Of a stretch of 64,000 bases of DNA, positions 44,925-61,922 are shown piece by piece. How positions within the stretch are numbered: position 1 is the stretch's first letter; every line of letters starts with the position of its first letter. Made by a program: the position numbers and the translations under genes. The stretch comes from Pseudomonadota bacterium (GTDB taxonomy: Bacteria > Pseudomonadota > Alphaproteobacteria > Reyranellales > Reyranellaceae), in assembly GCA_018242505.1 (NCBI GenBank), contig JAFEBU010000015.1, positions 62,001 through 126,000 on the forward strand, read 5' to 3'. The notes beneath the pieces were generated by a model. It was given only the letters and a program-made list of their open reading frames with translations. It was not told the origin of the DNA and did no database searches.

Positions 44925-45883
44925 CACGCGACCTTCGACGGTTCGAGAAGAGCGGCTCTCACCAGCCCGGCCAAGCCCTGAATGAACAGCGGATGCGTCC
45001 CCACCGTGGGAACGCGCACATAGACCGGGACGCCCGAATCGGCGGCAAGACGGCGATAGTCGATATCGAGTTCGACGAGCGTCTCGGAATGTTCCGAGAC
45101 GAACGATAGTGGATAGAGCACGATGCCGACCTTGTCGCGGGCCGCGCGCTCGATCTCCACCTGCGTCGGCGGGCCGATCCATTTCAGCGGCCCGACACGG
45201 CTTTGGTAGCAAACCGCATGATCGATACCGCCGATCCCTGCCACGATCGCGGCAGCCGTCTGCTCGACCTGCCGTTGATAGGGATCGCCGGCCTTGATGA
45301 TCTTCTCCGGCAAACCATGGGCAGAGAACAGCACGCGCTTCGGCCCGGATCCCGCTTCCGCCAGACCCTGCTTCACCAGCTCGACCGAGGCGGCAATGAA
45401 GCCTGTCTCGGTCGGATAGCTGTCGATCGCGACTGTTCCAGCGTTGAAGTGAGCCGCCTGATTCCAGCTCTTCATCGAAGAGCCCGTCGTCGTGGTCGAG
45501 AATTGCGGATAGAGCGGCAGCAGAACGATGCGGTCGGGTCCGAAACGCTGCACCGATCGCACCACGGCCTCCGTCAGGGGATGCCAGTAGCGCATGCAGA
45601 CGTAGCCGCGCCATTCATCGCTGTTGCCCGCACTCAATGTCTCCTCGAGCGCGCGCGCCTGTGCCTCGGTCTGGCCCACGATCGGCGAACTGCCGCCGAT
45701 CTGCTCATAGATCCGGCATGCCTTGGGCGCCCGACGGGCGGCGATGAACCGCGCCAGCGGCAGGCGCAGCCAGCTCGGCAGGCCAATGATCGCCGGATCG
45801 CTGAAGAGATTGCGCAGGAAGGGCTGCACCGCCTCCAGGGAATCGGGCCCGCCGAGATTGAACAGGATGATCGCGATCTTCAC
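44924..45883 (-). CDS. hemH: Ferrochelatase
   Basis: 319 residues from a GTG at 45883. Begins VKIAIILFNLGGPDSLEAV, with SSPIVGQTEAQA, LLPLYPQFSTTTTGS, the catalytic histidine motif LFSAHGLPE and the downstream glutamate region FVSEHSETLVELD. It inserts iron into protoporphyrin IX. It is 10 bp downstream of hemE, and hemJ overlaps its stop, so hemE-hemH-hemJ form one operon leading away from the probable origin. Confidence 0.95.
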   Translation of the reverse strand: MKIAIILFNLGGPDSLEAVQPFLRNLFSDPAIIGLPSWLRLPLARFIAARRAPKACRIYEQIGGSSPIVGQTEAQARALEETLSAGNSDEWRGYVCMRYWHPLTEAVVRSVQRFGPDRIVLLPLYPQFSTTTTGSSMKSWNQAAHFNAGTVAIDSYPTETGFIAASVELVKQGLAEAGSGPKRVLFSAHGLPEKIIKAGDPYQRQVEQTAAAIVAGIGGIDHAVCYQSRVGPLKWIGPPTQVEIERAARDKVGIVLYPLSFVSEHSETLVELDIDYRRLAADSGVPVYVRVPTVGTHPLFIQGLAGLVRAALLEPSKVA

Positions 45884-45893
45884 GGCAGATCCA

Positions 45894-46937
45894 TCACGCC
45901 AATGACGGCGTCCATTGCCGTACGGTTTCGACCAGCTCGGCCACATGCTCGGGCGGCGTCTGCTGCAGCACGCCATGGCCAAGATTGAAGATGAAGGAAC
46001 CGTGGGCGAGCTTGTCGAGGATGCGCCGGGCTTCGCGCTTCATCGCCGCACCGCCCGCGACCAGCATCATCGGATCGAGATTGCCCTGCAGACAGATATG
46101 CGGCTGCAGTTCCTGCGCCGCCCAATGGGCGCCGATACCCGTGTCGATCGACAAGGCGGCAAAGGCATCCGGACGGCGGTACATCAACGCGGCAGGCCCG
46201 ACGGCGCGCGGAAAGGCGATGACGGGCACCATTGGATGACGCGCCTTGAGCGCCTGGGCGATCCGCACCATCGGCTCCAGGGACCAGCGAAAAAGCTGCT
46301 CCTCCGGCAGGAGACCGGCCCAGGAATCGAAGAGCTGCACGGCGTCAGCGCCTGCCTCCACCTGGTAGGCGAGATGATCGACGACCGATTCGGCCAGAAG
46401 ATCGATCAGCAAACCGAAAGAATCGGGATGGCGATAGGCCCAGAGCTTGACCTTGGCGAAGTCGCGGCTGCCGCTGCCCTCGATCATGTAACAGGCGAGT
46501 GTGAAAGGGGCGCCGGCGAAACCCAGCAACGCCGTCTCCTGCGGCAAGGCGGCGCGGGCCAGCGCAATGGCGCGATAGACCGGCGCAAGGTGCTCGATGA
46601 GACGCACGCGGGAAAGCCGGCCAAACTGGGCGGGATCGGTGAGCGGCTCGAGTTTCGGTCCTTCGCCTTCCTCGAACCAGACTTTCTGCCCGAGTGCATC
46701 CGGCACGACCAGGATATCGGAAAAGATGATCGCCGCGTCGAGGCCGAAGCGCCGGACCGGCTGCAGCGTCACCTCGACCGCCTTCTCGGGCGTATAACAG
46801 AAATCGAGAAAGGAACGCGTCGTTGCGCGCACCGCCCGATATTCCGGCAGGTAGCGCCCGGCCTGGCGCATCAGCCAGACCGGGGGTGTCGGGAAGCGCG
46901 TCCCGCCAAGCGTTGCCAGGAATTTTCCGGCGCTCAA
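45894..46937 (-). CDS. hemE: Uroporphyrinogen decarboxylase
   Basis: 347 residues, starting at a TTG at 46937 with AGGGGA 5-6 bp upstream. PPVWLMRQAGRYLPEYR near residue 21 is the URO-D signature, with FSDILVVPDALGQ (catalytic Asp), GFAGAPFTLACYMIEG and LGHGVLQQTPPEHV. It decarboxylates uroporphyrinogen III to coproporphyrinogen III. It is the first gene of the hemEHJ operon and borders the candidate oriC. Confidence 0.96.
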   Translation of the reverse strand: MSAGKFLATLGGTRFPTPPVWLMRQAGRYLPEYRAVRATTRSFLDFCYTPEKAVEVTLQPVRRFGLDAAIIFSDILVVPDALGQKVWFEEGEGPKLEPLTDPAQFGRLSRVRLIEHLAPVYRAIALARAALPQETALLGFAGAPFTLACYMIEGSGSRDFAKVKLWAYRHPDSFGLLIDLLAESVVDHLAYQVEAGADAVQLFDSWAGLLPEEQLFRWSLEPMVRIAQALKARHPMVPVIAFPRAVGPAALMYRRPDAFAALSIDTGIGAHWAAQELQPHICLQGNLDPMMLVAGGAAMKREARRILDKLAHGSFIFNLGHGVLQQTPPEHVAELVETVRQWTPSLA

Positions 46938-47258
46938 TACAATCCCCTCATGTCCTCCTCTTACCCTTTCATAGAAGGTTGTAGGAGTCGTTGAGCGTGT
47001 GGAGCACGGGGATGAGCGTGATTAGACTCCCGTCCCCAGCTGCCTGTGGATCGGAAAGGCGCGATTCATCGGCATCGATGATATCGAGTCCCACTTCCCA
47101 TACCGTTCCTTCCGATTTGTCCGGAGAGGATGGCGGTCGGGACCGGTGCCGGGAAACGGGTCCTGAATCGGGAGATCCGGCAGAAAGCCGGGAGCTGTCC
47201 CCGGTTTGCCACGACCATTCCGATTTTCTCCCCCGTGCACTGTGGGCTAGATTGGGAC
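46938..47258. other. Candidate chromosomal replication origin (oriC) between hemE and the PEP-synthase regulatory gene
   Basis: In Caulobacter and Rickettsia oriC lies between hemE and the homologue of this regulatory gene (CC_0001/RP001). The gap here is 321 bp, large for this compact region, and its left part (46930-46990) is less GC-rich. Two motifs on one strand, TGCTCCACA (46998-47006) and CGATCCACA (47045-47053), each differ at one base from the Caulobacter DnaA G-box TGATCCACA, and a W-box TCCCCA lies at 47033-47038. No perfect TTATCCACA box or CtrA site was seen. Genes on both sides point away from it. Confidence 0.6.
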
Positions 47259-48107
47259 GTGGCGAATCGAAACTTCCACGTCCATCTCGTTTCCGACTCC
47301 ACCGGTGAGACGGTGTCGAGCGTCGCCCGTGCCTGTCTCGTGCAATATGAAGGCATCTTCGTGCAGGAGCATGTCTGGTCCCTGGTGCGGACTCGCGGCC
47401 AGATGGAAAAGGTGATGCAGGCGGTCGAGCGCGATCGCGGGCCGGTACTCTACACGCTGGTCGATCCGGACCTGCGCGACTGCGTGCGCGACCACTGCCG
47501 CCGCCTGCAGCTTCCCTGCGTCGGTGTGCTCGACCAGGTGATGAGCGTGCTGGCGGTGCACTTCCATTCCAAGAGCGAGCAGTGGCCCGGCCGCCAGCAT
47601 CAGCTCGACGACGGCTATTTCGACCGCATCGACGCCATGCATTACACGCTGGCCCACGATGACGGCCAATCGACCCACGACCTTGACGATGCCGACGTGA
47701 TTCTGGTCGGTCCGTCGCGTACGTCGAAGACGCCGACCTGCGTCTATCTCGCCAACCGTGGCGTGCGCGCGGCCAACGTACCGTTGATCCCCGCCGTGCC
47801 GCCACCGCCGGAGCTCGAGACGGCGACGCGACCCCTGGTGGTGGGGCTGATCACCGACCCCGAGCGGCTGGTCCAGATCCGCATGAACCGCCTGCGCCTC
47901 CTGCAGCAGGATGTCGAGACCGAATACACCGACATGGACGGCGTCCAGCGCGAGATCCAGGAGGCGCGGCGCCTCTATGCTCGCCGCAAGTGGGTGACGA
48001 TCGATGTCACGCGCCGCTCGATCGAAGAAACGGCAGCCTCGATCCTGCAGATGTTGACGGTGCGCCGCGAACAGCGCATGCAAGCGAGAGAAACCTCGAC
48101 AGGCTGA
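47259..48107 (+). CDS. Pyruvate, phosphate/water dikinase regulatory protein (DUF299, PPSR family)
   Basis: 282 residues if it starts at the GTG at 47259, which gives VANRNFHVHLVSDSTGETVS, the conserved N-terminus. A P-loop-like VGPSRTSKTPTCVYLANRG lies at about residue 150. The family both phosphorylates (with ADP) and dephosphorylates PEP synthase or pyruvate phosphate dikinase. In relatives it is followed by maf, aroE, coaE and dnaQ; none of these is here. The longer frame from 47130 crosses the candidate origin and was rejected. Confidence 0.9.
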   Translation: MANRNFHVHLVSDSTGETVSSVARACLVQYEGIFVQEHVWSLVRTRGQMEKVMQAVERDRGPVLYTLVDPDLRDCVRDHCRRLQLPCVGVLDQVMSVLAVHFHSKSEQWPGRQHQLDDGYFDRIDAMHYTLAHDDGQSTHDLDDADVILVGPSRTSKTPTCVYLANRGVRAANVPLIPAVPPPPELETATRPLVVGLITDPERLVQIRMNRLRLLQQDVETEYTDMDGVQREIQEARRLYARRKWVTIDVTRRSIEETAASILQMLTVRREQRMQARETSTG

Positions 48108-48118
48108 GGGAGGCGGCC

Positions 48119-48553
48119 ATGCGGCGCAGTCTCGTTCCCGGTCTTCTGCCAAGTCTTCTGATCGTGTCGGGTATCCTTGTGTCGATGAGGGCATTCGCTG
48201 CCCAGCCGGGCATCGAGGTCCATCGCGGCGACGACGGCTTGGTATTCGGCAGTTGCGTGCCGAGCCTGGTGGCGGAGAACAAGTCTGGCGAAACCGTCGA
48301 TTTCCTGCAGGTCGATGTCCTGTTCACGCTGTCGAACGGCGAGCAGCGCGATATCGAACTGCAGTCGGCCTATCGCGACGGCATCCTCTATCCGATTGCG
48401 CCCGGTGGCAAAGCCCTGCTGAAGCAGCATCTCGACCTGTCACGGGCCTTGGGCGTGCCGTGCGACCAGGTGAAAAGCCGCAGAGTCCAGCGCGTGCTGT
48501 GCCAGGCTTCCGGCGGCGGGACCTGCAGCTCGCCGGTCTCTGCCGAGCCGTAG
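48119..48553 (+). CDS. Exported protein of unknown function
   Basis: 144 residues from the ATG at 48119, with GGGAGG upstream. A signal peptide (residues about 5-28, ending FAAQ) precedes a mature domain with GLVFGSCVPSLVAENKSGE, a beta-rich pattern, and cysteines at GSC, VPCDQ, VLCQ and GTCSS. I know no function. It follows the regulatory gene by 11 bp and occupies the place where maf normally stands. Confidence 0.68.
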   Translation: MRRSLVPGLLPSLLIVSGILVSMRAFAAQPGIEVHRGDDGLVFGSCVPSLVAENKSGETVDFLQVDVLFTLSNGEQRDIELQSAYRDGILYPIAPGGKALLKQHLDLSRALGVPCDQVKSRRVQRVLCQASGGGTCSSPVSAEP

Positions 48554-52218: not shown

Positions 52219-52293
52219 GCGCGCCGATACTACAGGCGGTTCGGGCCATAAAATAGAGAGGCCGTCCCGGGCCCGCCGATGCTAGGAAAAGGC

Positions 52294-52644
52294 ATGGCTC
52301 CTGCTGCCGTTCGTCCCTTGTTCCGCCTTGCGCTCCTGTCGATCCTGATGCTGCCGCTCACCGGGCCGGCAGGAGCGCAGACCCGCCCGGCGCCGGCCGC
52401 CCCCGCGGCCAGCCTGATCGACCTCAACTCGGCCAGCCGCGACACCCTCATGGAGCTTGAGGGGATCGGCGAGGTTCGGGCCGATGCCATCATCCGCTCC
52501 CGCCCGTTCAAGACCAAGGCCGATCTGGTCGAGCGTTGGATTGTGCCCGAGGAGCTCTACGAGAAGATCGCCGGCAAAGTGACCGTGCGCCCGATCGCCA
52601 CGCCAGCCGCGCCTACCCGACCGACGACGCCCCCGAAACGCTGA
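52294..52644 (+). CDS. Exported ComEA-like helix-hairpin-helix protein
   Basis: 116 residues from the ATG at 52294 (AGGAAAAGG just upstream; an ATG at 52279 is the alternative). A signal peptide ends near GPAGAQ, then one HhH repeat: SLIDLNSASRDTLMELEGIG and EVRADAIIRSRPFKTKADLV. The fold binds DNA backbone non-specifically, as in competence protein ComEA, but the protein is short and no other competence gene is nearby. Its stop overlaps the mnmE start (TGATG). Confidence 0.82.
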   Translation: MAPAAVRPLFRLALLSILMLPLTGPAGAQTRPAPAAPAASLIDLNSASRDTLMELEGIGEVRADAIIRSRPFKTKADLVERWIVPEELYEKIAGKVTVRPIATPAAPTRPTTPPKR

Positions 52645-54023
52645 TGGACACTGCCACGATCTATGCGTTGGGCACGCCTGCGCCGTCGCGAATCCAGCCC
52701 GGCGCGCTGGCCGTCATTCGCCTCAGCGGCCCGCGCGCCGCCGACGCGCTGATCTTCCTCACCGAGCCTCACGCCTTCGAGCGCGGCACCTCGGCGCGCG
52801 AGCCGGCACTTCCGGAACCGCGCCGCATGACGGTGCGCACCCTCGTCGATCCCACGACGGGGGAGGAGATCGATCGCGGCCTTGTCGTCTGGTTCGAGGC
52901 GCCGCATTCGGAGACCGGCGAGACCATGGCCGAGCTGCATCTCCACGGCGGCCGGGCGGTCGTGAATGCGGCCGTGGGGGCGATCCAGAAGCTCGGTTTT
53001 TGCCGCCTGGCCGAGCCGGGTGAATTCACCCGCCGCGCCTTCGAGCACAACAAGCTAGACCTCACCAAGGCTGAAGCCATCGCCGACCTCGTCGCGGCCG
53101 AAACCGACCAGCAGCGCCGCCAGGCATTGCAGCAGATGGATGGCGCCTTGCATCGCCTCTACGAGGATTGGCGCACGCTCGGCCTCGGGGCGCTGGCCCA
53201 TCTCGAGGCCGCCATCGACTTTCCCGACGAGGATTTGCCGGCGGGCATCGGCGAGGCGGTGCGCGCCTCGATCCTGCATCTCGAGGCCGAGATCGCGGGC
53301 CATCTCGACGACAAGCGCGGCGAGCGCCTGCGCGAGGGGCTCGGTATTGCCATCATCGGTCCGCCCAACGCCGGCAAGTCCTCCCTGCTCAACCTGCTGG
53401 CGCGGCGCGATGCCGCCATCGTGTCGGAGACTGCTGGCACCACCCGCGACGTGATCGAGGTCCACCTCGATCTTGGCGGCTGGCCGGTGGTGCTGGCCGA
53501 TACTGCCGGCTTGCGCGAGACCGGCGACGCGATCGAGCAGGAGGGCGTGCGCCGGGCGCTGGCGCGCGCGGAAGCCGCCGACCTGCGTCTTCTGGTGCTC
53601 GATGCCACGACCGACTGGAAGGCAGCGATGGCCGGTCTGACGGCTGGCGCGTCCTGGGATGCGACACACGACATCGTGGTGGTGAACAAGGTCGATCTGC
53701 AGCCTGCCGACGCTGTGGGCGTGGTGGCGCTTTCGACCAAATCGGGTGCGGGCCTGCCCGAGCTGCTGAACCGCCTGCAACGCTCCGCCGGCCTCTTGAT
53801 GGAGCAGGGTGCGGCCGCCGTCCCGCCCCTCACCCGGGCGCGGCATCGCGAGGCGCTCGTCGAGGCCAAGGCCGCGCTCGCTCGCTCGCTCGGGGCGCCC
53901 GAAATCGCATTGGCTGCCGAGGACCTGCGTTTGGCCATGCGCGCGCTCGGCCGCATCACGGGCACGGTTCGTATCGATGAGCTCCTGGACGTGATCTTCC
54001 GCGACTTCTGCATTGGCAAATGA
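52644..54023 (+). CDS. mnmE: tRNA modification GTPase MnmE
   Basis: 459 residues. N-terminal tetrahydrofolate-binding domain ([13 protein letters not shown] and the [10 protein letters not shown] segment), helical domain, then an inserted GTPase with GPPNAGKSS near residue 239, DTAGLRET and NKVD, and the conserved C-terminal FCIGK carrying the reactive Cys. With MnmG it makes the 5-carboxymethylaminomethyl modification at wobble uridine. It is normally next to mnmG; here ligD and ku separate them. The upstream open frame from 52536 was rejected. Confidence 0.97.
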
Positions 54024-54078
54024 GGGGAACCGGGCTACGCGCCCTCTCGTTCACCTGACTGTGCCGCCGAGGTCTTCG

Positions 54079-56712
54079 ATGCCCAGGGACAGCCTGGCCC
54101 CTTATCGGGCCAAACGCGATTTCAGCCATACCGCCGAACCGTCCGGCAAGACGGCGGTGCCTGCCGCCGAGCAACTGCGCTTCGTCATCCAGCGCCACGA
54201 CGCCACGCGTCTGCACTATGATTTCCGGCTCGAGCTGGACGGTGTCTTCAAGTCCTGGGCCATCACTAGAGGCCCCTCTCTCGATCCGCGCGACAAGCGG
54301 CTCGCTGTCGAGGTCGAGGACCACCCGCTCGACTATGGCGATTTCGAGGGCACCATTCCCGAGAACCAATATGGCGGCGGCACGGTGCAGCTCTGGGACC
54401 GCGGTTACTGGCTGCCCGAGGGCGATCCGCATGAAGGGCTGAAGCGCGGGGATCTCAAGTTCACCCTGGTGGGCGAGCGGCTCAGTGGGAGCTGGGTACT
54501 GGTGCGGATGAAGTGGGATCGCGAACGTGGCCGCGGCAAGCGCACTAACTGGCTGCTGATCAAGCATCGCGACCAGGCGGCCGTCGATGGCGAGGGCGAC
54601 CGGATCCTGAAGGAGGATACGTCGGTCGCGTCCGGGCGCACCCTGAAGGAGATCGCACTCGGCACCGGGAAGGCCCCGACGCCGTTCATGACCGCCAAGC
54701 GCCGCTCCGCCGGCGCGGTCTGGGAAAGCAACAAGAAGGGCGGCGGCAGGAAGGCAGCCTTGCCGGAGACGACGGTGAAGGCGAAGAAGGTCCGTGCCAT
54801 CCCGACCTTTGTCGAGCCGCAGCTCTGCAAGCTCGTCGAGCAGGCGCCGTCGGGCCAAGGCTGGGCCCACGAGGTCAAGTTCGACGGCTATCGCCTGCAA
54901 CTGCGCGTCGTGGGCGGCAAGGCGACGCTGCGTACGCGCAAAGGCCTCGATTGGACGGACAAGTTTTCGGCGATCGCCAAGGCAGCGGAGAAGCTGCCCG
55001 ATTGCATGATCGACGGCGAGGCCGTGGCGCTCGACGCCAGGGGCGCACCCGACTTCGGCGCCCTGCAGGCCGCCCTCTCCGAGGGCAAGTCGGACAAGCT
55101 GGTCTTCTTTGCCTTCGACCTGCTCTTCGCCGAAGGCGAGGATCTGCGGTCGCTGCCGTTGCGCGACCGCAAGGCACGGCTGCAGGACCTCGTGTCGCGC
55201 CTCAAGGGCAAGCATCCGCTGATCCGCTATGTCGATCACTTCGAGACCTCGGGCGACACCGTGCTCGAATCGGCGCGCCGGATGAACTTCGAAGGCATCG
55301 TTTCCAAGGAGCTCGACGCGCCCTATCGCTCGGACCGCCGGGGAAGCTGGACCAAGACGAAATGTCGAGCCGGTCAGGAAGTGATCATCGGTGGCTGGAC
55401 CATGACGGGCGCCAAGCTGCGCTCGCTGCTGGCCGGCGCCTATCGCGGCAAGAAGCTGGTCTATGTCGGCCGTGTCGGCACCGGCTTCAGCCAGGAGGTG
55501 ATGCGCAAGCTCCTGCCGCAGCTCAAGGCCGTGGAGAGCAAGACCAGCCCCTTTGCGCCAGGCGCGAGCCCGCCGAAGGAAAGCAACATGCATTGGATGC
55601 GGCCCGAGCTGGTGGCCGAGATCGAATTCGCCGGCTGGACCCAGGACGGCAACGTACGGCAGGCCGCCTTCAAGGGGTTGCGCCGCGACAAGCCGGCAAG
55701 GGAGGTGAAGGTCGAGGAGCCGGTGAAACCGGCCGACACCGAGCTTGCCGAGCCCAAGCCAAGGGCTCGCAAGGGGCGACAGAGTGGGGCAGCCTCCCGC
55801 GCCGGCGGATCGAACACGGTCATGGGTGTGTCGATCTCGCATCCCGACAAGGCCCTGTGGCCGGACGAGACGCCACCCATCACCAAGCTCGAGCTCGCCC
55901 ACTACTACGAGACCGTCGGCGACGAGTTGCTGGAGCACATCAAGGGCAGGCCCTGCTCGATCGTGCGCACACCCGACGGTATCCACGGCGAGCAGAAGTT
56001 CTTCCAGCGTCATGCGATGCCGGGCGGTTCGGATCTCATCACCGAGGTCGAGGTGCGTGGTGATCGCAAGCCTTACCTGCAGATCGATCGTGTCGAGGCG
56101 TTGGCGGCAATCGCGCAGATCGGCGCCACCGAGCTGCACCCCTGGAATTGCCAACCCGATGTGCCGGATCTTCCCGGCCGGCTGGTATTCGATCTCGATC
56201 CCGCGCCGGATGTCGGATTTGATGAGGTGATCAAGGGCGCGCAGGCGGTGCGGCGGAGTCTCGAGAAGCTGGGTCTGGTGCCGTTCTGCAAGACCACCGG
56301 CGGCAAGGGGCTGCATGTCGTGGTGCCCCTCACCTCCGACAAGAAGAGCCCGGACTGGGACGCGGCCAAGATGTTCGCCAAGGAGATCTGCCGTCGGCTG
56401 GCCGACGAAGAGCCCGAGCGCTACGTGCTGAACATGGCGAAGAAGGAACGCGGGGGCCGCATCTTCCTCGACTATCTGCGCAACGACCGAACGTCGACCG
56501 CGGTGGCGCCGCTTTCTCCGCGGGCCCGCGACGGCGCTCCCGTCTCGATGCCGATCGACTGGAGCCGTGTGAAGGCGGGCCTCGATCACAGGCGCTACAC
56601 TATCCGCACGGCACCGGCGCTCCTCAAGAAGGAGAAGCCCTGGGGCAGCTACGCCAAGGCGGCGCGGTCGTTGCGGACTGCCATCGAGGCGTTGGTGAAC
56701 GGTAAGGATTAG
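54079..56712 (+). CDS. ligD: DNA ligase D (NHEJ phosphoesterase-ligase-polymerase)
   Basis: 877 residues from the ATG at 54079 (GAGG upstream). Domain order: 3'-phosphoesterase (about 20-170; [32 protein letters not shown]), ATP-dependent ligase (about 235-520; nucleophile lysine about 267 in [29 protein letters not shown]), polymerase/primase (about 590-860; [22 protein letters not shown]). It repairs double-strand breaks with Ku. It starts about 56 bp after mnmE and is 4 bp before ku, between genes that are normally neighbours. Confidence 0.96.
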
Positions 56713-56716
56713 TTTC

Positions 56717-57598
56717 ATGGCCAAAGGACAACGCCGCGCGCTTCGGCCCACCTGGGAGGGCCATCTCCGTCTGTCCCTCGTCACCTGCCCTGTCGCGCTC
56801 TACACCGCGACCGAACGTGGCGCCGACATCCATTTCAACCTGATCAATCCAAAGACCCACAACCGCATTCACATGCAGACGGTGGATGCCGGCACCGGTA
56901 AGCCGGTCGATCGCTCGGAACTGGTGCGTGGCTTCGCTGTCGCCAAGAACAAGTACGTCCTGCTCGACAAGGAAGAGCTGGATGCGGTGAAGCTCGAATC
57001 GACACGTCTGATCGACATCGATCACTTCGTCGATGCCGATGCGATCGACCGCATCTATTGGGACGAACCCTACTATCTCGCGCCGTCGGGCAAGACCGGT
57101 GTCGAGGCCTTTGCCGTGATCCGCGCGGGCATGGAGAAGCGAAACAAGGTGGCACTGGGCCGCCTGGTGCTGCATCAGCGCGAACGCCTGTGCGCTCTCG
57201 AACCGCGCGACAGCGGCATCTTGCTCACCACCTTGCGCAGCCACGACGAGATCCGCAGCAGCGACGCGGTGTTCGATCGCCATTTGCCCAAGCCCGACGC
57301 ACGCATGCTGGAGATCGCCGAGAAGATCATCGATCAGCAGGAGGCCAAGTTCGATCCGAGCGAATTCAAGGATCGCTACGAGGATGCCCTGCGCGATCTG
57401 ATCGCGCGTAAGAAGAAGGGCGAAACGCTGGTCGCGGCCGAGCCAGAGGAGCCCGAGGGCAAGGTCGTCGACCTGATGGACGCGCTGCGGCGCAGCCTCA
57501 AAGGCGGTGGCGGACGGGAAAAAGCAGAGCGCTTCATGGCGGCGCATCACAAAAAGATCCGGACGCGAAGCCGCAAGGGCCGCAAACGCGCCGCATAG
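56717..57598 (+). CDS. ku: Bacterial Ku protein
   Basis: 293 residues. [57 protein letters not shown] and [18 protein letters not shown] are the core beta-barrel of bacterial Ku, which encircles DNA ends and recruits LigD. The C-terminal tail is lysine/arginine-rich ([17 protein letters not shown]) as in DNA-sliding Ku forms. It is 4 bp downstream of ligD. Confidence 0.96.
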
Positions 57599-57655: not shown

Positions 57656-59546
57656 CTATGACGTGATCGTGGTGGGCGGCGGCCATGCCGGCTGCGAAGC
57701 CGCGGCGGCCGCCGCGCGGCTCGGCGCGCGCACCCTGCTCCTGACCCATCGCCTCGACACGATCGGCGAGATGTCCTGCAATCCCGCTATCGGCGGATTG
57801 GGCAAGGGTCATCTGGTGCGCGAGATCGATGCGCTGGATGGCGTCATGGGTCGCGCCATCGACCGCGCCGGGATCCAGTTCCGCACCCTCAATCTCTCCA
57901 AGGGTCCGGCCGTGCGTGGCCCACGCGCCCAGGCCGATCGCAAGCTCTACCGGCAGGCCATGCAGGCGTTTCTGTCCGAGCAGAGAAATCTGGAAATACG
58001 CGCAGAAAGTGTATCTGATATCTTGCTGGATACACGTGATAATTGTGGCGGTGTCGTAACGGAGTGTGGCGAGGAGATCGCATCGGGCCGCGTGATCCTG
58101 ACCACAGGCACCTTCCTTCGAGGCCTGATCCATTTAGGTGAAATCAAGATCCCTGCGGGTCGTGCACAAGGCCAGCGCAGCGGTGTGCCAGACGATCTTT
58201 CGTCGAAAGCGGTCGAGCCGCCATCCACCAGACTCGCGCTCAGGTTGCAGGTCCTCGGGTTCGCGCTGGGGCGACTCAAGACCGGCACGCCGGCGCGACT
58301 CGACGGCCGCACGATCGACTATGCCGGCCTCGATCGCCAGGAAGGCGATGACCCGCCGCGACCCTTTTCGACCCTGACGCGCGAGATCACGACGCCGCAG
58401 GTCGCTTGCCATATCACCGAGACGACGCCCGCTACGCACGCGATCATCCGTGCCAATCTGCATCGTGCGCCGATGTATTCCGGGCAGATCGACAGTGTGG
58501 GTCCGCGCTATTGTCCATCCATCGAAGACAAGATCGTGCGGTTTGCCGATCGTGACCGACACCAGATCTTTCTTGAGCCGGAGGGACTCGACGACCCGAC
58601 GGTCTATCCCAACGGCATCTCGACCTCGCTGCCGCGTGAAGTCCAGCTCGCCTTGGTGCAGACGATTCCTGGCCTGGAACGGGCAGTCATGCTCCGGCCT
58701 GGATATGCCATCGAGTATGATCATATCGACCCGCGCGAGCTTCACGTCACTCTGGAGACCAAACGGCTTCCAGGTCTCTACATGGCGGGCCAGATCAATG
58801 GGACGACGGGTTACGAGGAGGCGGCGGCCCAGGGGCTGGTCGCCGGGCTGAATGCGGCTTTGGCGGCGGCCGGGTCGGCGCCGTTCCAGGTCGACCGCGC
58901 CGATGGGTATCTCGGTGTGCTGGTCGACGATCTGGTCGGCCTGGGTGTCACCGAGCCCTATCGGATGTTCACGTCGCGGGCGGAGTATCGCCTGTGGCTC
59001 CGAGCCGACAACGCGGATCAGCGTTTGACTCCCAAGGGCATCGCGATCGGATGCGTCGGCAGCGAGCGAGCAAAGGCGTTTCACGTGAAACGTCAGGCCC
59101 TGGATCAGGCGCACGATCTCGCGTGCCATCTGACGGCCAGTCCGTCGGCTTTGGCCAAATGGGGTGTGGCAATCAACCAGGATGGCGTCCGGCGATCGGC
59201 CCTCGATCTGCTGGCCTATCCGGACATGGACTGGGCCCGGCTGTCGTCGCTCTGGCCGGCCTTGGCGTCGGTGCCTGCCGAGATCGCCGAACAGCTTGTA
59301 ATCGACGCGCGCTATGAAGGCTACCTGGCTCGGCAGCGCCAGGACATCGTGGCCTACCGGCGCGACGAGGCCCTGGTTCTGCCGGCCGACCTCGACTACG
59401 CGACAGTCGGCGGTCTCAGTAACGAGGTGCGCCAGAAGCTTCTGGCTCACCGGCCGGCAACGTTGGGCCAGGCGGCCAGGATCTCGGGAGTCACGCCGGC
59501 CGCCCTGGTGGCCCTGCTGAAATACGTCCGCCGCCGGGCGGCTTAG
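57642..59546 (+). CDS. mnmG: tRNA uridine 5-carboxymethylaminomethyl modification enzyme MnmG
   Basis: 634 residues. FAD-binding start [20 protein letters not shown], then [35 protein letters not shown] and the late [14 protein letters not shown], all hallmarks of GidA. It works with MnmE. No ordinary ribosome site is seen; the start codon is in a hairpin. One parS site lies inside the gene (59078-59091). The frame before the ATG, from 57507, overlaps ku and was rejected. Confidence 0.97.
59078..59091. promoter_or_regulatory. parS: parS site 1 (ParB-binding centromere)
   Basis: GTTTCACGTGAAAC, a perfect 14-bp palindrome identical to the core of the bacterial parS consensus, with C and G flanks making a 16-bp palindrome. 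It lies in the coding region of mnmG, 1.1 kb before parA. Confidence 0.9.
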
Positions 59547-59550
59547 ATCG

Positions 59551-60210
59551 GTGGTCGGCCTTGACGTCGATCGGCGGCGTTTCCGGGAGGAAATGCTTCG
59601 GCTGGGGATTCTTGTTTCACGTGAAACCGAGACTCGCCTGGAGCTTTTGGTCCAGACCCTTGAGCGCTGGCAAAAGGCGATCAACCTGATCGGTCGGGCG
59701 ACGCTTCGGGATGTCTGGGTCCGCCATGTTCTGGACTCGGCCCAGCTTGCACCTTTGATCCCGTCCGAAGCGCGGAGCCTGATCGACCTGGGAAGCGGCG
59801 GCGGCTTTCCGGGGTTGGTGCTGGCAGCTCTGCGGCCCGATCTCGATGTCTCCCTGATTGATTCCGACGCCCGCAAAGGCGCTTATCTCGCGGAAGCTGG
59901 CCGTCGAATGGGCCTTCCGAAAGCACCGAAAATCATGATCGGCCGTATCGAAACCGTGGAGTCAGCCAAGGCCGATATCATTACCGCCCGAGCGCTCGCG
60001 CCACTCGACCAGCTGCTTGGGTGGGCGGACCGTTATCGGAACGATCCCGCTATTTGCCTTTTCCACAAGGGAAAAGGATGGCGGGATGAATTGACCGCAG
60101 CCCATAATAATTGGGACATTGAAGTAACGCCGCTTCCCAGCGTAACGGATCGTGACGCCGTCCTCCTCCGCATTGCCTCCTACCGGGCCAAAGATCTTCG
60201 CGATCGCTAA
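59551..60210 (+). CDS. rsmG: 16S rRNA (guanine527-N7)-methyltransferase RsmG
   Basis: 219 residues from a GTG at 59551. SAM-binding DLGSGGGFPGLVLA at about residue 79, ERWQKAINLIGR before it and ITARALAPLDQLL after. It methylates G527 of 16S rRNA. It follows mnmG by 4 bp and its last 59 bp overlap the start of parA. A second parS site is inside the gene (59614-59627). Confidence 0.95.
   Translation: MVGLDVDRRRFREEMLRLGILVSRETETRLELLVQTLERWQKAINLIGRATLRDVWVRHVLDSAQLAPLIPSEARSLIDLGSGGGFPGLVLAALRPDLDVSLIDSDARKGAYLAEAGRRMGLPKAPKIMIGRIETVESAKADIITARALAPLDQLLGWADRYRNDPAICLFHKGKGWRDELTAAHNNWDIEVTPLPSVTDRDAVLLRIASYRAKDLRDR
59614..59627. promoter_or_regulatory. parS: parS site 2 (ParB-binding centromere)
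   Basis: GTTTCACGTGAAAC again, flanked by T and C (15 of 16 bases of the 16-mer consensus). It lies 536 bp from site 1 and inside the 5' part of rsmG. Confidence 0.9.
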
Positions 60211-61009
60211 CCAGAAAGGCGGCGTCGGTAAGACCACGACCGCCATCAACCTTGCGACCGCCCTTGCCGCAGTCGGTGAACGGGTGCTGCTGATCGATCT
60301 CGACCCACAAGGGAATGCCTCTACCGGTCTCGGCATTGCCCGAAACGAACGTTCCCCCGGAGCCTATGAGTTCCTGCTGGGGCTGGCCTCGCTGTCCGAT
60401 GCCGTGCGTCTCTCGCAAATCCCCGGCCTGTCGGTCATGCCGGCCTCGGTGTCGCTCGCCGGTGCCGAGATCGAGCTGATCGACATGGAACGGCGCGAGC
60501 ATCGACTGGCCGAAGCGTTGTCCCGCCCCGAGGACGACGCCCGCGGCCGATGGGACATCATCCTGATCGACTGCCCACCGTCGCTTGGCCTTGTCACCTT
60601 GAACGCCCTGGTTGCCGTCGACGCTGTGCTGGTCCCCTTGCAGGCCGAGTTCCTGGCGCTCGAGGGCATCGGTGCCTTGTCCAATACCGTCGACCGGGTG
60701 AAGAAGGTTCTCAACCCAAAGTTGCATATCGCCGGGGTCATCCTGACCATGGTCGACCGCCGCATGACCCTCAGCCAGCAGGTCGAGGCCGATGTGCGCG
60801 CACATTTCGGCGAGCTCGTGTTCGGCACCACCATCCCGCGCAATGTGCGCATTGCTGAGGCGCCGTCGCATGGCCTGCCGGTCCTGATCTACGACAATGC
60901 CTGTGCCGGATCGCAGGCCTATATCCTGCTGGCGAGCGAATTCATTCGTCGCCGGCGCACCGCCGCAGAAGCGGCCCAGCAACAGGTCCCCCATGAACCT
61001 GCCACCTAA
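60152..61009 (+). CDS. parA: Chromosome partitioning ATPase ParA
   Basis: 285 residues from a GTG at 60152. Deviant Walker A NQKGGVGKTT at about residues 20-29, LIDLDPQGNASTGLG, and LIDCPPSLGLVTLNAL. It drives origin segregation by interaction with ParB. The start overlaps rsmG by 59 bp; an N-terminal 13-residue Ser/Pro-rich piece precedes KIFAIANQKGG. The next gene overlaps its end by 17 bp. Confidence 0.96.
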   Translation: MTPSSSALPPTGPKIFAIANQKGGVGKTTTAINLATALAAVGERVLLIDLDPQGNASTGLGIARNERSPGAYEFLLGLASLSDAVRLSQIPGLSVMPASVSLAGAEIELIDMERREHRLAEALSRPEDDARGRWDIILIDCPPSLGLVTLNALVAVDAVLVPLQAEFLALEGIGALSNTVDRVKKVLNPKLHIAGVILTMVDRRMTLSQQVEADVRAHFGELVFGTTIPRNVRIAEAPSHGLPVLIYDNACAGSQAYILLASEFIRRRRTAAEAAQQQVPHEPAT

Positions 61010-61922
61010 ATCGCGCGGCCTTGGCCGCGGACTTTCCGCTCTCCTGGGGGACGACGACGTCGCCGCGACCGTCGCGCCACCGCCGGCCGCCGGTGGCGAC
61101 AGTCCACGACCGACCCCTGCCCAGCGCACACCCTTCACGCTGCCGATCGCACATCTGCGCCCCGGCCGGTTCCAGCCGCGCACTGTCTTCCCGGACAAGG
61201 ACGGGCTGGTCGAGTCGGTCCGCCAGTTCGGACTTTTGCAACCTATCCTTGTGCGCCCCCTGGATGGCGAGCCCGATGCCTACGAGATCGTCGCCGGCGA
61301 GCGGCGCTGGCGGGCGGCGCAAAAGGCGCAGTTGCATGAGGTGCCCGTCGTCGTCCGCAGCATGGACGATATCGACGCCCTGCAGCTTGCCTTGATCGAG
61401 AACCTGCAGCGCACCGATCTGTCGCCCATCGACGAAGCCATGGGATATCGCCGCCTGGTCGAGCAGTTCCATCAGACCCAGGAGGAAGTGGCGGAGACGA
61501 TGGGGCGCAGCCGACCCCACATCGCCAACACCTTGCGCCTTCTCGACCTGCCCGAGGAGGTCCGGAGCATGGTCCAGCGGCAGGAACTGAGTGCGGGCCA
61601 GGCGCGCACGTTGCTGAGCTTTGCCAATCCGGCGGCGATGGCCGAGCGCGTGGTCAAGGAGAAGCTCAGCGTCCGCGAACTGGAACGGCTGGCGGCTGGC
61701 GAGAAGTCCGGAGGCAAGGCGGGAAAAGCCGGCAAGCGCGGAGGGACCGGCGACGGTACCAAGACCGCCGACACCAAGGCGCTGGAGCGCCGCATCGAGG
61801 AAGCGCTGGGCCTGAAGGCGTCTCTGGTCCTGCGCGGACTCGGCGAGCAGAGCGTGATGACGCTCGAGATCCGCGACTACGACCAGCTCGACCTCGTCGT
61901 CGAGCGCCTGACGCGACGTTGA
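60993..61922 (+). CDS. parB: Chromosome partitioning protein ParB
   Basis: 309 residues. RGLGRGLSALLGD start, the CTP-binding motif GERRWRAA, the LIENLQRTDLSPIDEA segment, an HTH (QEEVAETMGRSRPHIANTLR) and the Gly/Lys linker before the C-terminal dimerisation domain. It loads at parS sites and spreads as a clamp. Two parS sites lie 1.4-1.9 kb upstream. The gene ends at a strong hairpin. Confidence 0.96.
   Translation: MNLPPKSRGLGRGLSALLGDDDVAATVAPPPAAGGDSPRPTPAQRTPFTLPIAHLRPGRFQPRTVFPDKDGLVESVRQFGLLQPILVRPLDGEPDAYEIVAGERRWRAAQKAQLHEVPVVVRSMDDIDALQLALIENLQRTDLSPIDEAMGYRRLVEQFHQTQEEVAETMGRSRPHIANTLRLLDLPEEVRSMVQRQELSAGQARTLLSFANPAAMAERVVKEKLSVRELERLAAGEKSGGKAGKAGKRGGTGDGTKTADTKALERRIEEALGLKASLVLRGLGEQSVMTLEIRDYDQLDLVVERLTRR

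Follow-up and report, generated by a model that had tools for sequence, protein, structure and literature searches.

The hemE–ppsR gap as a very probable chromosomal replication origin in a Reyranella-type bacterium, with a DnaA-trio array that is decayed in its sub-clade

The published chromosomal origins of Caulobacter and Rickettsia lie between hemE and a COG1806 gene (PMC1914354). The in silico origins of Wolbachia, Ehrlichia, and Anaplasma (hemE-COG1253) share with the locus described here a hemE flank, a short A+T-richer gap, and few DnaA sites; they differ in the right-hand gene, and in that CtrA and IHF sites are reported there (PMC1914354) and were not found here. Another published arrangement is the basal unwinding system (BUS), in which box-bound DnaA loads onto a strand of 3'-GAT-5' trios (PMC6669920, PMC8287927). 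A search of an open collection of papers gave none on the replication origin of Reyranella.

The window analyzed here is a stretch of 64,000 nucleotides, bases 62001-126000 of a 128.6-kb contig (C6) in a 91%-complete MAG of 85 contigs and 5.79 Mb, whose closest relatives are Reyranella and Enhydrobacter aerosaccus. An earlier note, made from the letters alone, had proposed that replication starts in the 321-bp gap between divergent hemE (TTG start) and the DUF299 gene, here ppsR; we recover that gap at 46938-47258, with hemE starting at TTG as described. The gap is very probably the chromosomal oriC of this Reyranella-type bacterium. The proposal is upheld by a skew switch on the contig, by parS and parAB nearby, by box columns kept in 56 relatives, and by the hemE-COG1806 rule (PMC1914354). 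As that rule would have it, the gap is flanked by hemE and a COG1806/DUF299 gene, its A+T is above that of the window, and it holds a conserved cluster of DnaA-type boxes, though these are weak variants; the GC skew changes sign there on the organism's own contig, and is ambiguous at chromosome scale in a complete relative. A location beside hemE is the expected place for an origin in this class; the origin is ordinary in kind and well supported. An RNA element in the gap was considered and set aside, as positions 46000-48200 have no Rfam match; a single-stranded DNA fold gives z = -2.2. The window has no tRNA that could serve as a landmark. The features are collected in Table 1.

Table 1. Coordinates of the features in and around the hemE–ppsR gap (window numbering).
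Feature	Position	Strand	Details
hemE, left flank	45894..46937	-	TTG start, first base 46937; TIGR01464 389 bits; PF01208
Candidate oriC gap	46938..47258		321 bp; GC 0.58 vs 0.66 for the window
A+T-richer stretch adjoining the boxes, candidate unwinding element	46940..46999		40-bp windows reach as low as 45% GC, among the lowest ~1% in the window
DnaA-trio array T5-T1	46979..46993	+	genus TAG TAG C/GAG TAG TAG; window TTG TAG GAG TCG TTG (decayed)
Spacer between trios and box, 4 bp	46994..46997		AGCG here; GGCC, GGGG, AGGG, or AGCC in most relatives
Five GANTC (CcrM) sites	46985..47169		starts 46985, 47025, 47063, 47086, 47165
Weak DnaA box 1, adjoining the trios	46998..47006	-	TGCTCCACA at 47006-46998; one-mismatch G-box; TGTGG at column 46998 in 41/56 gaps
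Tandem box 2, W-box-like	47007..47015	-	TCATCCCCG here, GCATCCCCA in most of the genus; GGGGA at column 47008 in 56/56 gaps
W-box TCCCCA	47033..47038	+	TCCCC at 47033 in 54/56 gaps
G-box-like DnaA box	47045..47053	-	CGATCCACA here, CGGTCCACA in many relatives; TGTGG at 47045 in 56/56 gaps
Conserved TGTCCCCG, possible further W-type site	47196..47203	+	TCCCC at 47198 in 55/56 gaps
Conserved TGTGGGGTA (here TGTGGGCTA)	47241..47249		~10 bp before ppsR; TGTGG in 50/56 gaps
ppsR/COG1806 (DUF299), right flank	47259..48107	+	GTG start; PF03618, NF003742
parS-like CGTTTCACGTGAAACG	59077..59092		inside mnmG
parS-like TGTTTCACGTGAAACC	59613..59628		inside rsmG
parA-like and parB genes	60152..61922	+	ORFs 60152-61009 and 60897-61922

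The cumulative GC skew of the contig reaches its minimum at position 45714 of the window, 1.2 kb from the gap, and then rises. The best change point, using 1-kb bins, is at 46000; block permutation gives a p of about 0.01, and the bootstrap spans 25-54 kb. The mean (G-C) per base goes from -0.009 on its left to +0.0115 on its right. The whole-chromosome skew of this genome cannot be put in order, because the genome is an 85-contig MAG. In a complete relative, G015 (ppsR 95% identical), we sampled 37% of the chromosome in 100 stretches. There the gap is at 1.999 Mb, the sampled chromosome-scale minimum at ~1.74-1.85 Mb (0.15-0.25 Mb away from the gap), and the maximum at ~4.83 Mb; the 100 stretches themselves put the minimum near 1.74-1.78 Mb. 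At a finer scale, the skew of G015 falls steeply between 1.985 and 1.999 Mb (mean skew -0.038) and rises after 2.003 Mb, which leaves a local minimum no more than 4 kb from the gap. On the ppsR side, ~0.2 Mb (C1:1775000-1985000) show a near-zero, slightly positive skew, possibly from a recent local inversion in G015; an inversion of about that length would account for the offset minimum. The GC-skew check that the earlier note had suggested comes out favorably on the organism's own contig, and ambiguously on the chromosome of G015.

Could replication start elsewhere nearby, either beside dnaA, or ~0.2 Mb off on the ppsR side where the sampled minimum of G015 would place it? The dnaA gene is on another contig here; in two single-contig assemblies its distance from the gap is 136 kb (G015) and 145 kb (G021). 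However, in five genomes there are no DnaA-box matches around dnaA, which speaks against an origin beside that gene, and dnaA sits on the hemE side, opposite to the skew offset of G015. Moreover, the contig itself switches skew within ~1 kb of the gap. The two arms of G015 measured from the gap to the skew maximum are nearly equal (~2.83 and 2.61 Mb, vs. 3.1 and 2.4 Mb when measured from the coarse minimum), and the gap therefore fits a balanced chromosome. We consider a start elsewhere highly improbable, and retain the gap as the origin. Two parS-like palindromes and parAB are found 12-15 kb from it. On the same side, between mnmE and mnmG, there is also a complete NHEJ pair, ligD and ku (54013-57598), 7-10 kb from the candidate origin.

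For the comparative analysis we aligned 56 distinct Reyranella-type hemE-ppsR gaps. Their lengths remain within 321-346 bp, even though most of the hemE proteins share just 80-90% identity with that of the window. Against the window, mean identity is 62% in the gap and 79% in hemE; in the divergent glnD-mnmE gap that these loci also contain, a control scored as identity to the window since some relatives carry an extra ~0.9 kb there, it is 29%. (That control gap, 52219-52643, is ~425 bp here vs. ~1.29 kb in several relatives, which suggests that an extra gene has been gained or lost.) Alignment with relatives, another check put forward beforehand, places TGTGG, GGGGA, and TCCCC in the same columns in nearly all of the 56 gaps, and the GTG start of ppsR is at the same place in 55 of them. 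Two one-mismatch G-boxes in 321 bp clearly exceed the 0.11 expected from the rate in the window itself, where such boxes are twice as frequent as in shuffled sequence (22 vs. 10.7). The conservation of alignment columns is stronger proof against chance than G-box counts in the window.

How similar is this origin to Caulobacter crescentus Cori and to the oriC of Rickettsia prowazekii? It shares with them the flanking genes, a similar size, weak G- and W-type DnaA boxes, and several GANTC sites (PMC1914354, PMC4468827, PMC3973325). The two G-box-like sequences that had been pointed out, one mismatch each on the minus strand, and the W-box between them, are all in place, and perfect DnaA boxes are indeed absent; neither a perfect nor a one-mismatch TTATNCACA occurs in the gap. 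Unlike in Caulobacter and Rickettsia, none of the 56 Reyranella gaps has the exact G-box TGATCCACA, the CtrA pair TTAA-N7-TTAA, or the IHF consensus WATCAANNNNTTR (the last searched as consensus only, which a diverged site would escape), and GcrA was not found in the organism's own 91%-complete MAG (G000). From the set of Cori elements, the gap has the W-box TCCCCA and lacks an exact G-box, CtrA sites, and the IHF consensus. DnaA binding of the Caulobacter kind, as had been proposed, is thus sustained in part: the conserved W-box-type TCCCC and the CGATCCACA/CGGTCCACA variant speak for it, whereas the absence of an exact G-box and of a CtrA pair in the 56 gaps speaks against it.

The GANTC sites are about 4-fold enriched, with 4.9 per gap vs. 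1.15 in shuffles over the 56 gaps, and of the column pair 47086/47093 (GATTCCCGATTC), the first is kept in 47 and the second in 52 of the 56 gaps. Intergenic GANTC is raised in the class generally (PMC3973325), and therefore the enrichment in the gap is by itself no proof of a role. The genome encodes a CcrM-like protein with a RAMA domain (607 bits to NF050803, under the strict cut-off of 830). That GcrA is missing despite a CcrM-like methyltransferase means either that it is absent from the lineage, or that it was lost in the incomplete MAG.

The best-conserved part of the gap, a trio array with a tandem box, had been overlooked in the motif list of the earlier note. To the left of the first box, the genus core reads TAG-G-TAG-TAG-(C/G)AG-TAG-TAG; four bases, mostly G/C, and TGTGGCAYN-TGGGGATGC follow. 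The fixed tandem TGTG-N6-GGGGAT of the genus amounts to a weak DnaA box plus a W-box, and TGTGGNNNNNGGGGATG has a single occurrence in the entire 5.8-Mb genome, inside this gap. Read on the other strand, the core gives a W-type box, a weak box, a 4-bp spacer, and (CTA)n, which is the order of a BUS. In this the genus consensus is like the incC BUS of Bacillus subtilis (DnaA-boxes 6/7, spacer, DnaA-trios; PMC6669920, PMC8287927): its two boxes abut, a spacer of 4 bp follows, and the predicted strand carries five trios of the 3'-GAT-5' type. It is unlike it in that the Reyranella boxes are about three mismatches off the consensus, the distal one being W-type CCCCA, and in that the trios are decayed in the window's clade. 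Under the loose published rule (at least 3 consecutive trios and a DnaA box within 16 bp, with up to 3 mismatches), 54 of the 56 gaps qualify, vs. ~0.5 matches per gap by chance; when at least 5 trios are asked for, 42 of 56 do, vs. 0.03 by chance. All five trios keep their middle A in 39 of the 56 gaps. We find it likely that origins in the genus open by a BUS-like route.

One may ask instead whether the gap serves only as the promoter region between divergent hemE and ppsR, its conserved blocks being promoter and regulator sites. The gap does sit between divergent genes, and the conserved TGTGGGGTAAAA ~10 bp before ppsR could be a promoter; the third TGTGGGGTA(AAA) block is either a DnaA box or part of a ppsR promoter with a short-leader mRNA. 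But promoters alone would leave aside the skew switch, the nearby parS, the DnaA-type boxes in fixed columns, the trio array beside a box, and a tandem unique in the genome, and the glnD-mnmE gap, likewise divergent and from these loci, is conserved much less (29% vs. 62%) and has no GANTC in its 425 bp. We regard a promoter-only role as very unlikely.

The tandem of the proposed origin extends beyond the genus. TGTG-N6-GGGGAT is kept in the outgroup hemE gaps L094, L098, L101 (Tistrella), and L114; across ~263 kb of loci from 22 relatives, it and the pattern Trio4+TGTG are confined to the gaps. A class-wide search with the pattern ATCCCC-N6-CACA-N1-6-CTA shows no overall enrichment over the reversed control, and for its matches only adjacency to hemE is informative: hemE is beside the match in 6 of 30 loci, five of them outside Reyranella and one Reyranella itself. 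Separately, the public MAGs L067, L075, and L091 bear the names Rhizobium sp. Q54 and Asaia bogorensis, but their ppsR and oriC sequences place them with Reyranella; the names look wrong.

From the location, skew switch, conservation, site geometry, and GANTC enrichment described above, we infer how binding, opening, and timing might proceed. DnaA, encoded elsewhere, would bind weak CCACA/CCCCA boxes, two or three in number. Starting at the tandem boxes at 46998-47015, a DnaA filament would extend onto the adjacent trio strand at 46979-46993 and open the A+T-richer DNA toward hemE, where the helicase could be loaded much as in a BUS. Forks would then depart both ways, with ParB/parS 12 kb off separating the origins, and CcrM methylation of the clustered GANTC sites may time or mark initiation. 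Counting against an oriC in this gap are the offset minimum of G015, the window's own trios, which fall outside the BUS rule, and the absence of any perfect DnaA, G-box, CtrA, or IHF site. Neither a distant skew minimum nor a loss of the motifs in relatives was cleanly found, with G015 as one warning.

The window's own gap falls outside the loose rule, and L032 is one other such genome. The window's sub-clade has five members (L001, L015, L016, L017, and L046; support 100/98 on the ppsR tree), and every one has lost two or three of the middle A's; such losses at trio 1 or 2 are seen again in other parts of Reyranella. L017 belongs to genome G010, and the hemE and ppsR figures are the same for L055, from Enhydrobacter aerosaccus ATCC 27094; the decay thus occurs in a cultured strain and is no artefact of a MAG. 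We also considered an adaptation of DnaA to the decayed trios and rejected it: comparing the clade with the rest, the AAA+ and DNA-binding domains have no clade-specific change, and only residues 4 and 125, outside both domains, differ consistently.

The decay is one small surprise in an otherwise ordinary origin, in a repeat that is nearly constant in the genus. In the clade of the window and E. aerosaccus, trios 1, 2, and often 5 have lost their middle A and the boxes are kept, and it is conceivable, if somewhat doubtful, that a BUS-type origin is shifting there to opening without canonical DnaA-trios beside the box. As the trios are degenerate in the sub-clade, opening there would have to depend more on the boxes, the A+T-rich DNA that remains, or a DnaA able to accept trios without the middle A. 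The alignment yields a compact, testable alphaproteobacterial origin, a fixed TGTG-N6-GGGGAT beside DnaA-trios that other genera of the class also have at their hemE origins. Trios that are intact in most species and decayed in others of the same genus, with DnaA nearly the same, offer a clean comparison of the trio requirement. If the shift is real, the clade would amount to a natural experiment on how a BUS-type origin changes its opening mechanism.
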